A stretch of DNA of 64,000 nucleotides, taken from Bacillota bacterium (lineage in GTDB: Bacteria; Bacillota; DSM-12270; Thermacetogeniales; Thermacetogeniaceae). The stretch is from contig JABLXW010000015.1 of the NCBI GenBank assembly GCA_013177945.1, forward strand, positions 55,395 to 119,394. Direction: 5' to 3'. Position numbers and translations under genes: made by a program. The notes beneath the pieces were generated by a model. That model saw only the letters and a list, made by a program, of their open reading frames with translations. It was not told where the DNA came from and did no database searches. Positions 33,806 through 39,640 of this stretch are shown here, piece by piece (the stretch's first letter is position 1; every line of letters begins with the position of its first letter).

Positions 33806-34063
33806 ATGGAACAGGTTATAGTGAGAGTTTCCAGTAAGCGACAAATAACCTTGCCTGCCGCAATTTATAAAAAGCTCGGCATCCAGCCGGGACAAAAACT
33901 GTTATTAGAAGTTCAAGGGGACAAAATTATTCTTTCGCCGAAAACTACAAGTTATACGGAACTGCTGGCCGGTTCATTGAAGAACGTCTACGGCCGAACT
34001 CCAGAAGAGGTCAACGCTTATATCAGGAAGGAACGCGAAACATGGGACAGGACGCTTTCTTAA
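33806..34063 (+). CDS. vapB: AbrB/SpoVT-type antitoxin (VapB)
   Basis: An 85-residue antitoxin with an N-terminal swapped-hairpin AbrB DNA-binding domain: VIVRVSSKRQITLPAAIYKK, LGIQPGQKLLLEVQGDKI and ILSP. The C-terminal part (GRTPEEVNAYIRKERETW) would wrap the toxin. ATG 33806 follows GGAGGG, downstream of a strong promoter. It overlaps vapC by 22 bases. Members of this family bind their own promoter as antitoxin or antitoxin-toxin complex. Confidence 0.88.
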   Translation: MEQVIVRVSSKRQITLPAAIYKKLGIQPGQKLLLEVQGDKIILSPKTTSYTELLAGSLKNVYGRTPEEVNAYIRKERETWDRTLS

Positions 34064-34524
34064 ACAGAATTGCCCATGTCAAACGCTTATTACTCGACAC
34101 CAATGCAATAATCTATTTTTTGCAAGGTATTAGCCCTTACGACACCGTTTTAAATCCTTTATTCCATCTTTTTGAAGAAGGAAGACTCCAAGCTGTCATT
34201 TCTGTGATTACTGAAGCCGAACTCCTGGTTGGGCCGCTTAAAAAAAATGACAAAGAAGCCTTAGCAAGGGTAAGGCTACTGCTCAATGAGTTTCCGGGCA
34301 TGAAAGTAATCTCGATTTCGCGCCAGATTGGCCAGATGGCCGCTTCTATTAGAGTTGAAACTAATTTGCCTCTGCCCGATGCGCTCATCATTGCCACGGC
34401 TAAGGCAGCTGGTTGCGATGCAATTATTGGAAACGATCAATCCTGGTCTAGAATTGATACGCCGGAGGTACTCCTTCTTGATGATTATGTTTTCTTTCAT
34501 CCCGCCTGCTTACGGCCCCGATGA
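34042..34524 (+). CDS. vapC: PIN-domain toxin (VapC)
   Basis: A 160-residue PIN-domain ribonuclease. The conserved acidic residues are present: Asp in RLLLDTNAIIYFL, Glu in VITEAELLVG, Asp in LPLPDALIIATAKAAGCDAI, and Asp in IIGNDQSWSR. The toxin therefore looks intact, unlike the HicA toxins next door. It overlaps vapB by 22 bases. Its last 77 bases overlap the end of relE on the other strand. VapC toxins cleave tRNA or rRNA; the target here is unknown. Confidence 0.9.
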   Translation: MGQDAFLNRIAHVKRLLLDTNAIIYFLQGISPYDTVLNPLFHLFEEGRLQAVISVITEAELLVGPLKKNDKEALARVRLLLNEFPGMKVISISRQIGQMAASIRVETNLPLPDALIIATAKAAGCDAIIGNDQSWSRIDTPEVLLLDDYVFFHPACLRPR

Positions 34525-34753
34525 GAACCGTTCTTTCGGCGTCGAGAATCTCGTAGAGGATGCGGATGTTCCCGACACGTAGCCTGTAGTAGTTCTTTTC
34601 GAGGCAGATACAGCCTAGCGGTCGCGGTTCTTCAGCCAGCCCTTCCAGGGCGCGCCGCACTTTCTCCTGCTCTGCCGGTGTTAGCCTCGCGTAATCGTGG
34701 CGGAAGCGGTTGACATTCTTGGGTTTAACGCTGTACACGACCCTGTTCTTCAA
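34448..34753 (-). CDS. relE: RelE/ParE-family toxin
   Basis: A toxin of about 100 residues on the minus strand: VYSVKPKNVNRFRHDYARLT, PAEQEKVRRALEGLAEEP, NYYRLRVGNIRILYEILDAE and AVSRRDERKH. YRLRVGNIRILYEI and the basic C-terminus are typical of RelE-type ribosome-dependent mRNA endonucleases. The start is uncertain: TTG 34753 overlaps relB by 29 bases, GTG 34738 by 14. The C-terminal tail (NHQEGVPPAYQF) is encoded by DNA that overlaps vapC in antisense and may be an extension beyond the family end. Confidence 0.82.
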   Translation of the reverse strand: MKNRVVYSVKPKNVNRFRHDYARLTPAEQEKVRRALEGLAEEPRPLGCICLEKNYYRLRVGNIRILYEILDAERTVLIGAVSRRDERKHNHQEGVPPAYQF

Positions 34754-35015
34754 CTTCCCGCATTATCTCGAATACGTCCTTATCCTCGGGGTTGTCGGTG
34801 GGTTGCTCGAAGATTTCCCGGGCCAGTCTGATGTCCTGGACCAGCTCGTAGGACTCCAGCAGTTCCCTGTAGGCTTCTGCGCTTAGCAGCACCCCTTCTA
34901 CCTCGTTGTTCCTGAGGATCAGCAGCGGCTTCTCCTTACACTTGGCCAGATATTTCCCCAGCGACCTGGAGAGGGCGGTGACGCTGACCAGGCTGTCGAT
35001 GTCGAATGAAAGCAC
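34725..35015 (-). CDS. relB: Phd/YefM-family antitoxin (RelB)
   Basis: A 96-residue antitoxin: LSFDIDSLVSVTALSRSLGK, YLAKCKEKPLLILRNNEVEG and VLLSAEAYRELLESYELVQ. The VSVTALSRSL and LRNNEVEGVLLSAEAY motifs define the Phd/YefM family. GTG 35015 is preferred because GGAGG lies 8 bases upstream; ATG 35030 lies before that site. A sigma-A promoter precedes it on the same strand. The relBE pair converges with vapBC. Confidence 0.85.
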   Translation of the reverse strand: MLSFDIDSLVSVTALSRSLGKYLAKCKEKPLLILRNNEVEGVLLSAEAYRELLESYELVQDIRLAREIFEQPTDNPEDKDVFEIMREVEEQGRVQR

Positions 35016-35039
35016 AGGAAACACCTCCATTTGAGGATT

Positions 35040-35742: not shown

Positions 35743-35946
35743 ATGTTAGTAGGAAAGAGCTCGTTTTATCGGGCTTCTCCTTTGATGTTTGAACTTTATG
35801 AGAATCTCATAAGTGAGTTTGAAAATGATGAGAGATACTCAGGTTTTAAGGACCATGCTCGACCTACTGCAGACAATTATCCTCAGATGGCAGGAACCTT
35901 GTATCGTCATTTCCCAGCTCATTTTTATAAAGCGCAGGATTTATAA
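35743..35946 (+). CDS. N-terminal piece of the RT fusion protein
   Basis: The first open part encodes MLVGKSSFYRASPLMFELYE, NLISEFENDERYSGFKDHAR and PTADNYPQMAGTLYRHFPAH, then runs to TAA 35944. The following frame continues smoothly with DFINSYQKKYGDRASICEQE and into the methyltransferase-like motif, which shows that one base is missing near 35940. No family is recognised for this leader on its own. The DNA before it (35516-35742) has no gene. Confidence 0.5.
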   Translation: MLVGKSSFYRASPLMFELYENLISEFENDERYSGFKDHARPTADNYPQMAGTLYRHFPAHFYKAQDL

Positions 35947-36014
35947 ACTCCTACCAGAAAAAGTATGGTGATAGAGCGTCTATTTGTGAGCAGGAGAGTG
36001 TCGTTGTAGTAGAC

Positions 36015-37841
36015 GTGGGAGCTGGGGTAGGAACTTTTAGCTTAGCTTTAATGGATTTAGTAATGCAGGAAAAAGCAAAAGGCGCTGATGTTTGTGAGAA
36101 ATTTTATTTGATCCTGATCGAACCCAATGTGTTATATCACGAAGTAGCCAATGAATTATTAAAACAATGTGCGCAAGGGTCAAATCTACAGGTTAAATGG
36201 ACGATAATTGCTGGAAAGTTTCCTGATGAACCATGTCTAAGTGAAGTATTGGAAAGAGTGGCTGGGTATGATTCTAAATTTGTGATAATTGCCATGAGTA
36301 ATCTGTGGAACTGGCTAGAAGATGGAAAAAGTCTCCTCGATATTTTTTTGCCGTGGCGGCGAAAGACGGAAGCAGAAACAGTATATGATAGAGCGTGTAA
36401 TTTCTTAAAAGAGTTTGCGGAGAATACTCCGGCGTTGCAGGTTGCATTATTATCAGTCGAAACTAAGGAGCCAAAGCTTCGCAAGAAACTGGATAAATTT
36501 TACAAAAGGTTAAAGCAGGCTTCGCAGGATATTTATATCTTGAAGGGCCCAGACACAAATTTTATAAGATACGAGAACTTCCCAAGATCTTATTATAGAG
36601 AAGTGAAAACGAAGATTGAGCACGTGAATAGCTATAATGCTGCCTTTGCAGTTTTTGGTTTGATTGTGAACAAAATGAGCGAGCTAGAAAATTTAAAAAG
36701 GGCGTATTTTAAGAGCCGCCAGGCATTGCGATGGGAGTTTCCTTGTGATGAAGTTGAAATCAAACTGTTTGAACAAGATCTCGAACACAACCTGAAGCAA
36801 CTGGGAAAAAGGATCCTTACCGGTTACAATTTTGGGGAATTTCTACTGGAGTATGAAGTGCCGAAAAATGATAAAGAGACAAGGCCAAGGGTTATGGACA
36901 GTTTAAGTGATAGTATAGTTGGGGCCGCGTTTTTAGATGTTGTGGGTAGAGGTATAGACAGGAACTTTTGTAGGACGAGTTATGGTAACAGGATCAATGA
37001 AAAAATTGATAGTGAATATATGTATAAGTATTTTTGGCATTCGTATCGAAATTTCATGTATAAACCGAAAAGTTGGTTCGCAAAAAACGGTTTTAATTTT
37101 TTTGTGAAGATGGATATCAAGTCTTTTTATCCTTCGGTAAAACAGGAGAAATTAATTGAAAAGCTTATCAGGTTATTACCTGCAAAAGAACCGAGAGTAT
37201 TAAACTTGTTAAATTCTATGATTAAAAGATCAATTTTTGGTTCTCCTGAAGGTTGTGGTATACCCCAGGGGCCGATCTGTAGCGGTTTTTTAGCGAATTG
37301 TTATTTAGACGAATTTGACCGCGAAATGGAAGCCAAATTGGGACCAAATGGATATCGGAGATATGTGGATGATATGATTATCTACACACATGATGAGGAA
37401 AGTTGTAAAGAATCGATCAAGTATGTGTCGGAAAAATTATGTGAGTTAGGGTTAAAAAATCATACAGGTAGAAAGCTGAAAGAGGGAACGATTGAAGATT
37501 ATTTATCATTGATTGAGCGTGATCGGGAAGTGGATGATTTCCAGAAGGATTTATCGAGAATCTTGAGGGGGTTGTATAGTTTAGATTGGAATAACTACCG
37601 CGAGTTTATAAGAAAACCTGATGAGTTCGTCAGGTTATATAGTGAGTGCCTTCGGACTATTGGAGTTATTATCAACCCTGAGTGGTTGCGGAGAAAGCTT
37701 TTGCTTGGAAAAGGCTTGAGTGCGGCTTTATCCTTTGTGTCCAGGTATTTTAGTTCTCAAATGTACCGCGTAAATTTCCTCATCCTGCCAAATTACTCAA
37801 TGCAAATGAGTGGGCAAAGGATTTTAAGTCGAAAAATTTGA
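36015..37841 (+). CDS. Methyltransferase-like domain fused to reverse transcriptase (main ORF)
   Basis: The longest piece, 609 residues from GTG 36015; similarity extends upstream of that codon in the same frame. It starts inside the glycine-rich DVGAGVGTF loop of a class I SAM-binding fold, with FYLILIEPN as the acidic second motif and FVIIAMSNLWNWL further on. The second half is a reverse transcriptase: FVKMDIKSFYPSV (motif A with the first Asp), GCGIPQGPICSGFLANCYL then DEFD (motif B), and RRYVDDMIIY (motif C, YVDD at 37362-37373). The SGFLANCYLDEFD form resembles defence-associated (UG/Abi) RTs more than retrons or group II introns. The last 30 residues, after 37765, are probably frameshift noise. 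Confidence 0.75.
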   Translation: MGAGVGTFSLALMDLVMQEKAKGADVCEKFYLILIEPNVLYHEVANELLKQCAQGSNLQVKWTIIAGKFPDEPCLSEVLERVAGYDSKFVIIAMSNLWNWLEDGKSLLDIFLPWRRKTEAETVYDRACNFLKEFAENTPALQVALLSVETKEPKLRKKLDKFYKRLKQASQDIYILKGPDTNFIRYENFPRSYYREVKTKIEHVNSYNAAFAVFGLIVNKMSELENLKRAYFKSRQALRWEFPCDEVEIKLFEQDLEHNLKQLGKRILTGYNFGEFLLEYEVPKNDKETRPRVMDSLSDSIVGAAFLDVVGRGIDRNFCRTSYGNRINEKIDSEYMYKYFWHSYRNFMYKPKSWFAKNGFNFFVKMDIKSFYPSVKQEKLIEKLIRLLPAKEPRVLNLLNSMIKRSIFGSPEGCGIPQGPICSGFLANCYLDEFDREMEAKLGPNGYRRYVDDMIIYTHDEESCKESIKYVSEKLCELGLKNHTGRKLKEGTIEDYLSLIERDREVDDFQKDLSRILRGLYSLDWNNYREFIRKPDEFVRLYSECLRTIGVIINPEWLRRKLLLGKGLSAALSFVSRYFSSQMYRVNFLILPNYSMQMSGQRILSRKI

Positions 37842-38437
37842 AACTAGTAAAAAAACTCAAGCGGTTAAAAGAGGAATTGGAAAATAGGCTACAACGGCTT
37901 TACGACTGTTACGGAGATCTTTCAACAACTGGGCTTGATGCCGATATTAGAAAAAAGATAACGGCGAAATACAGATTTTACACATACAGAGCAAGTATCT
38001 TGTCTTCGCCTGGAATAATCCCCGTAATAAAGAAAATTTTACCGTCCCCGTGGTTATATAATATAACTGTTTTGCGGAGTTACCCGGCATTGATCCCGGA
38101 CCTTGTTCGAATATTAGAGAATGAGAGTTCTGAATACCTAAAGTATGTAGCTATTTGGGCATTGGGTGAAATGAAGCCAAACTGTTCCAATGCTGTCTCA
38201 GCTTTAACCAAAATTTTGTTTTTTGATGAAAGTTTAGGCATCAAGCTGATGGCATCTCAGTCACTGCTAAAGATTGATTACTGGGATGGATTTGATTGGG
38301 AGAGGTTAGAGCAAGAGATTTTGAAAATGCAGAAAATACCCCGCTTATTGAAAAATCTAATTCTTATCTGGGGCCGCAGTGGTTCTGATAAATTAAAGTT
38401 GAATTGGATGAGAGCGTTAGAGAAGATGAAAATGTAG
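37838..38437 (+). CDS. HEAT-like helical C-terminal piece of the RT fusion
   Basis: A helical, basic protein piece of about 199 residues: LVKKLKRLKEELENRLQRLY, then YNITVLRSYPALIPDLVRIL, SEYLKYVAIWALGEMKPNCS and AVSALTKILFF. SSEYLKYVAIWALGEM is a typical HEAT/armadillo-like repeat. Its TTG overlaps the RT stop, but the same frame is open upstream to about 37765 and there reads KFPHPAKLLNANEWAKDF, so it is best seen as the continuation of the RT protein. UG/Abi RTs are known to carry alpha-helical repeat tails, which fits. A third base loss near 38415 leads to the last 50 residues, ending at TAG 38577. Confidence 0.6.
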   Translation: MKLVKKLKRLKEELENRLQRLYDCYGDLSTTGLDADIRKKITAKYRFYTYRASILSSPGIIPVIKKILPSPWLYNITVLRSYPALIPDLVRILENESSEYLKYVAIWALGEMKPNCSNAVSALTKILFFDESLGIKLMASQSLLKIDYWDGFDWERLEQEILKMQKIPRLLKNLILIWGRSGSDKLKLNWMRALEKMKM

Positions 38438-38689
38438 CGAATGCATTGAGGTGGATAAACAGATGTAGTGACAACGTTATGCGTATACCAGATAAATTGC
38501 CGGAGTACGTTAGAGGTAAGGAATATCCCTTGATGGAGCCTGGCCTTGATATCTCGGCATACAGTTCGTATTATTAGGGTTATTAAGGGTGTTATTATCA
38601 ATGAAAAGGAGGCAAATGGTTGTAAGTTTCGAGAAACGATGAAATTGAACTTAAGTTCGAAGATCTTTAGCGTGAGGGGAAAGATACTG

Positions 38690-39640
38690 ATGATCGTTTC
38701 GGCCAGCAGGAGGACAGACATACCGGCTTTTTACGGAGAATGGCTGTATCGCCGCGTTGAAGAAGGCTGGGCGGTGGCTGTTAACCCTTTTACTAAGGCT
38801 GCGGTCATGGTGTCGCTGGATCCCCAGGACGTTTATGCACTCGTGCTCTGGTCGAAGAATTTCCGGCCGTTTTTGCCCTACCTGGAGTACCTGGATCAGC
38901 GCAAGTATAACCTTTATTTTCTGTTCACGATCACCGGGATGAGTGGCCAGTTTGAACCTCATGTTCCCCCGAAGGAGGAGATGGTTGAGGTTTTCCGTTA
39001 TCTCTCAGAGAGGTATTCCCCAGAACATGTCCAGTGGAGGTTTGACCCGATCCTGATAACAACTGAGATGGGTCGGGATTATTATCTGGAGAGGTTTGAA
39101 TACATGGCCAGGAGGCTCAAGGGTTATACCCGGCGTTGTTACATAAGTTTCGCCAACCGCTACCGCAAGGTTGAGGTGCGCTTTCAGAAGAGGTTTGGGA
39201 ATTCCAGCAGATGGTTGGAGTTGGAGCTGGAGGAGAAGCAGAAGCTGGTGCGGGAGATGGCGCAAATCGCTGAGAGGTACGGTATCAGCTTGTATAGCTG
39301 TTGCCAGCCCGAACTGGTAGGAGAAGGCGTAAAGAGGGGCAGTTGTGTAGATTACCTTTATATGACCGCGGTTTTCGGGGAATTAATACCTGCGCCCAAA
39401 AAATCTCCGACCAGGGCCGGGTGCTGCTGCTATGAGAGCATCGACATCGGCATGTACGACACCTGTCTTCACGACTGTGTATACTGTTACGCCAATCAGG
39501 ATCACTGGAGGGCTCTTAAGAGGTATCGTGCTCACAGGCCCGAGAGTCCGAGTTTGCTGCCAGGAGAATGTAAATTTAACGAGAACAAGGGTAGCAATCG
39601 AATCCCCGGCCTTTTCTGCCAGCCAAAATTAATTTCGTGA
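38690..39640 (+). CDS. DUF1848 family protein
   Basis: A 316-residue protein: MIVSASRRTDIPAFYGEWLY, LVLWSKNFRPFLPYLEYLD and VQWRFDPILIT define the DUF1848 family. The C-terminus carries a cysteine cluster, GCCCYESIDIGMYDTCLHDC followed by VYCYAN, likely to bind a metal or an iron-sulphur centre of radical-SAM type; the function is unknown. ATG 38690 has GAGGGGA 9 bases upstream; the earlier start at 38546 lies in the tail of the RT locus. It is intact in the middle of decayed DNA, so it may be under selection, or be a recent neighbour. Confidence 0.85.
   Translation: MIVSASRRTDIPAFYGEWLYRRVEEGWAVAVNPFTKAAVMVSLDPQDVYALVLWSKNFRPFLPYLEYLDQRKYNLYFLFTITGMSGQFEPHVPPKEEMVEVFRYLSERYSPEHVQWRFDPILITTEMGRDYYLERFEYMARRLKGYTRRCYISFANRYRKVEVRFQKRFGNSSRWLELELEEKQKLVREMAQIAERYGISLYSCCQPELVGEGVKRGSCVDYLYMTAVFGELIPAPKKSPTRAGCCCYESIDIGMYDTCLHDCVYCYANQDHWRALKRYRAHRPESPSLLPGECKFNENKGSNRIPGLFCQPKLIS

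Follow-up and report, generated by a model that had tools for sequence, protein, structure and literature searches.

The gene at positions 35743–38577 (forward strand) of the 64,000-nucleotide stretch of DNA analyzed here (hereafter, the window) is almost certainly a disrupted member of the UG25 family of reverse transcriptases (RTs), and it is followed on the same strand by an intact DUF1848 gene. Taken as a whole, as a UG25-type DRT operon encoding a methyltransferase-like domain, an RT, and an alpha-Rep tail, plus a DUF1848 partner, and acting by the mechanism proposed below, this reading has in our estimate a probability of roughly 0.6. UG25 is thought to defend against phages, and the window copy, being disrupted, is an unremarkable representative of a rare defence type that is already catalogued, by itself one further damaged example of UG25. 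The useful outcome is an Rsm22/METTL17-like fold paired with a DUF1848 partner, together with three intact two-gene operons (L017, L018, and L020), which are short, testable constructs. The features of the locus and its upstream region are as follows.

33806–34063, forward: small gene upstream of the PIN toxin gene
34042–34524, forward: PIN-domain toxin gene, upstream of the RT gene
34448–34753, reverse: ParE
34725–35030, reverse: Phd/YefM
35743–35943, forward: segment 1, N-terminal helices before the methyltransferase fold (PADLOC RT_UG25 positions 11–59, E 2e-4)
35946–36660, forward: class I methyltransferase-like domain (alignments; Pfam and structural matches of a relative's domain)
36660–37470, forward: RT core with MDIKSFYPSV, GIPQGPICSG, and YVDD (PF00078, 59.5 bits; PADLOC RT and UG models)
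37471–38577, forward: thumb region and alpha-Rep/HEAT-like helical tail (HEAT_2, 8.5e-5; alphaRep chains; tblastn segments)
38690–39640, forward: intact DUF1848 gene, operon partner (PF08902, E 2e-90; PADLOC RTasDUF1848, E 3e-70)

The RT gene and its frame breaks

Region 35743–38577 encodes one protein of approximately 945 residues, whose reading frame is divided into four segments by three net losses of one base. Intact homologues with the same domain order, 924–935 residues long, were found in three other Bacillota genomes, namely L017:8131–10905 (924 aa), L009:754–3549, equivalent to L020:11652–14447 (931 aa), and L018:7803–10610 (935 aa from stop to stop), and a broken relative is present in Syntrophaceticus schinkii (L010/L012; genome G018). 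With the three intact relatives as tblastn queries, the window gene is recovered as collinear segments at approximately 35743–35943, 35946–37766, 37772–38407, and 38425–38565, the three switches having the same direction, with one base missing at each, and the stop codon of the gene ends at 38577. The first segment, whose frame is closed by a stop at 35944, is 42–43% identical to the intact relatives, and the central one shows 38% identity to L018 (E 3e-161), which, judged from the alignment, is far beyond chance. Motifs DVGAGVGTF, LILIEPN, MDIKSFYPSV, GIPQGPICSGFLANCYL, and YVDD share one frame (stop-to-stop 35931–37841). Both the boundaries and the motifs given for this gene in the preliminary description are correct. 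The other two switches lie inside the tail region, at about 37770 and within approximately 38385–38437.

In the sequence as given, the frame breaks are genuine. Since the RT is split by three of them, the window copy is probably inactive, while its DUF1848 partner is intact. Assembly or sequencing errors in a gene that is intact in the organism are a somewhat unlikely explanation. They would agree with the single direction of all three switches, with the retention of every catalytic motif and of an intact DUF1848 gene, and with the state of the S. schinkii Sp3 draft, which also has two breaks, one of them at a run of eight A; however, the window switches are outside long homopolymers, and the one long stretch that aligns with a sister genome has few single-base gaps over 3.6 kb. 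The Sp3 copy goes out of frame at L012:2140–2165 and L012:3945–3965, one of these being the run of eight A; both breaks are no more than about 20 residues away from two window switches, but have the opposite direction. Programmed frameshifting is not proposed despite an in-frame A_AAT_TTC-like heptamer near the second switch, since none of the intact relatives requires a shift and no comparable heptamer is present at the third switch.

Domain composition and family assignment

The N-terminal domain carries motif I DVGAGVGTF at about 36012, motif II LILIEPN, and a motif IV-like FVIIAMSNLWNWL, with D(V/I/L)GAGxGTF and (V/I)EP(N/S) kept in all copies that cover the domain. The corresponding domain of L017 matches Pfam Methyltransf_28 with 26.3 bits, above the cut-off of 23.3, and, more weakly, other methyltransferase families. 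The domain modeled alone by AlphaFold2 (7 rows; pLDDT 77.5, pTM 0.81) consists of alternating strands and helices; its fold is of the Rossmann type and includes motif I as well as the acidic end of strand 2. According to VIA-align, METTL17/Rsm22 chains are the top structural neighbors (Z 15.6–17.6, 238–247 residues aligned; 14.3 for the next group). The domain shares the fold of these proteins (Z as high as 17.6, across 246 residues), but only 12–15% identity, and Pfam Rsm22 is absent from its hits up to E 5. Taken together, the predicted structure and the profile match support an N-terminal class I methyltransferase (SAM) fold. No substrate-defining motif was recognized in this domain, and no published description of it for UG25 was found in our literature search, which did not cover Mestre 2022.

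At the other end of the protein, the tail matches HEAT_2 with 23.2 bits, just below the Pfam cut-off of 27.7, and designed alphaRep chains with E-values from 6e-7 to 2e-4, and the tail segment is 47% identical to the tail of L018 (tblastn). The model of the whole protein is of low quality (pLDDT 64); the best solved folds found with this low-confidence model by Foldseek include AbiK, DRT4, UG15, and Abi-P2 alongside group II-like RTs. Like AbiK, Abi-P2, and DRT4 (class 1 UG/Abi RTs, in which an alpha-Rep/HEAT tail replaces the thumb), which are among these best matches, the window protein has an RT followed by what may be a helical-repeat tail of this type. To our knowledge, these enzymes as described so far have neither a fused methyltransferase fold nor a DUF1848 partner. 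DRT1 and DRT5 also couple an RT to an enzyme-like domain, but in their case the fused or paired domain is a nitrilase and not a SAM fold.

Class was assigned by profile scores (PADLOC and NCBIfam). The PADLOC models RT_UG25 (PDLC03763) and RT_UG35 (PDLC03774) are full-length, and the partner model is RTasDUF1848 (PDLC03815). RT_UG35 (3e-82) and RT_UG25 (5e-80) match the central part of the window gene with near-equal scores (268 vs 275 bits), and RT_UG25 is the top model for the first and the last segments; the segments cover positions 11–59, 83–606, and 642–780 of 870 in the UG25 profile. The window gene is filed under UG25 because the intact relatives score higher with UG25 (370–409 bits, E 5e-111 to 1e-122) than with UG35 (303–327 bits). 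It shares with UG25 and RTasDUF1848 the whole length, the domain order, and the same-strand DUF1848 gene, and differs in being split by the three frame switches and in being the most diverged of the five UG25 copies. UG35 likewise covers its methyltransferase region, RT, and tail; however, the genome with the RT closer to UG35 has no DUF1848 at all.

YVDD and the G(L/I)(P/A)QG motif are kept in all copies, and the motif A Asp is present. The group II and retron models of NCBIfam match the RT core only, and both assignments are rejected: the group II intron RT model (group_II_RT_mat, cut-off 300 bits) gives 99 and 87 bits, and the retron RT model (St85, cut-off 235 bits) gives 62 and 56 bits. 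Of the preliminary description, the SAM fold at the N-terminus, the UG/Abi defence-type RT distinct from group II introns and retrons, and the HEAT-like tail (here, HEAT/alpha-Rep) stand. Its suggestion of an undescribed defence RT does not, as RT_UG25 and RT_UG35 cover all three parts of the protein and the class UG25 was already established, the myRT paper having expanded its six starting sequences to 25 (PMC8934634); the DUF1848 partner had been overlooked.

The family is sparse: a UG25/UG35-like gene was found in five out of 398 sampled genomes of the phylum Bacillota, including the UG35-closer one (L019, genome G063), which is cut by a contig end. The source genome of the window (2.7 Mb) belongs to the same family as S. 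schinkii G018. Apart from one distant RT, the scan of the genome contig collection yielded no more than two close relatives; among phages and plasmids, only RT-domain matches were obtained, none covering 80% of the protein, and the viral contigs scanned contained no relative of the UG25 protein.

The DUF1848 partner

In all five UG25 loci, a DUF1848 gene adjoins the UG25 gene on the same strand, upstream of the RT in G015 and G018 and downstream of it in the window, G102, and G386. The two genes overlap by 4 nt in L017 and are 23 nt apart in L018. The window genome, G015, and G018 each have no DUF1848 other than the RT partner. Among 17 genomes of the window's family lacking the RT, a DUF1848 match was observed in one, and that match is a fragment. 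The genome in question, G001, is a sister of the window genome from the same genus; its truncated fragment lies in L069 at about 10100, and it has no match to a UG25/UG35-like RT. The RT tree is identical in topology to that of DUF1848, with the change in gene order falling between the two clades; with five rows, this agreement provides modest evidence. All five partners keep a CX3CX2C motif, which is C-terminal in the window gene and on the basis of which they are probably radical-SAM enzymes, Pfam Radical_SAM giving only a weak match.

The pairing itself is already catalogued, as PADLOC 'RTasDUF1848'. This profile also matches DUF1848 proteins not linked to an RT, and so by itself is no proof of linkage. 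An exclusive association of DUF1848 with the RT is rejected: most DUF1848 genes in the relatives are not adjacent to a UG25-type RT, and the RT-linked copies fall in a nine-row branch (93/93) together with four unlinked ones. No paper naming DUF1848 was found in the literature search. Some of the unlinked DUF1848 genes are followed by genes for a HepT-like protein and a Polbeta-type nucleotidyltransferase (MNT/HEPN-like), in L065:6682–8457, L068:509–2510, and, partly, L066:6858–8737; the families were checked in L065, and L066 and L068 were judged by eye. A simple toxin–antitoxin pair, with DUF1848 as a toxin held by the RT, is disfavored, since DUF1848 is intact where the RT is broken, i.e., in the window and in G018.

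Proposed mechanism and genomic surroundings

In other DRTs, effectors are coupled to the synthesis of DNA (PMC13275509, PMC13174585, PMC12632851). Classes 1 and 3 perform template-free DNA synthesis, which in DRT1 controls an effector (PMC13275509), and class 2 performs RNA-templated DNA synthesis (PMC12632851, PMC13174585). By analogy, we tentatively suggest a mechanism for intact UG25 operons, as a conjecture that may well need revision. The alpha-Rep tail would hold the RT in an oligomer, and the RT would make non-genomic DNA, as in other DRTs; phage infection would disturb this DNA product or the RT complex; and the fused methyltransferase-like domain and DUF1848 would serve as sensor or effector, which would arrest the phage, probably through abortive infection. 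The more specific variant, in which the antiviral step is a chemical modification of the RT's DNA product, of a nucleotide pool, or of an RNA target by a fused active methyltransferase and radical-SAM DUF1848, seems doubtful. If true, a defence RT working with methyltransferase-type and radical-SAM proteins would represent new chemistry among DRTs. Our literature search found no report of a phage-defence test or other experimental study on UG25.

As for the class, the sequence features lean in two directions, the alpha-Rep tail to class 1 and the profile ranking to class 2. A system similar to class 2 (DRT2, DRT9, DRT10), where repetitive cDNA is made from a cis-encoded noncoding RNA and is then processed or protected by DUF1848, would be somewhat unlikely. 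For UG25 members, the NCBIfam models Drt2 and Drt3a, both of class 2, come directly after group II in the ranking, and in PADLOC the score of UG17 (DRT10) is good; yet the tail resembles that of class 1 enzymes, and neither an Rfam match near the operon nor a sequence shared by the flanks was found, although with five diverged loci this is a weak test for a template RNA. Moreover, L020 has almost no space 5' of the operon and about 224 nt 3' of it, so that the room for a common RNA is limited.

We regard as unlikely the absence of effectors, with the fold being a degenerate SAM- or RNA-binding platform and DUF1848 a house-keeping add-on for nucleotide repair or modification. METTL17 is generally described as such a degenerate SAM-binding or RNA-binding platform, and METTL17/Rsm22 are the best structural neighbors of the domain; its motif IV-like SMCNLLHW lacks (D/N/S)PPY, the motif of amino-methyltransferases; and DUF1848 is found alone in many relatives. 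On the other hand, every copy that covers motif I and the acidic end of strand 2 retains both, which suggests that SAM binding is under selection.

The toxin–antitoxin genes at 33806–35030 are surroundings and not a part of the RT system. The operon in L020 neighbors DruA and a DrmD-like helicase (PADLOC), and the neighbors of the relatives' operons fit defence islands. In L017, a 639-residue dCTPase/deaminase-type defence gene (L017:11191–13110; PADLOC dCTPase, 9e-111) lies directly upstream of the UG25 operon. A different RT protein was observed in Lachnospiraceae, where a 2497-residue frame (L013:5763–13253) is matched from end to end by PADLOC RT_UG29 (1589 bits) and has a DnaG-type zinc ribbon and Toprim domains N-terminal to the RT.
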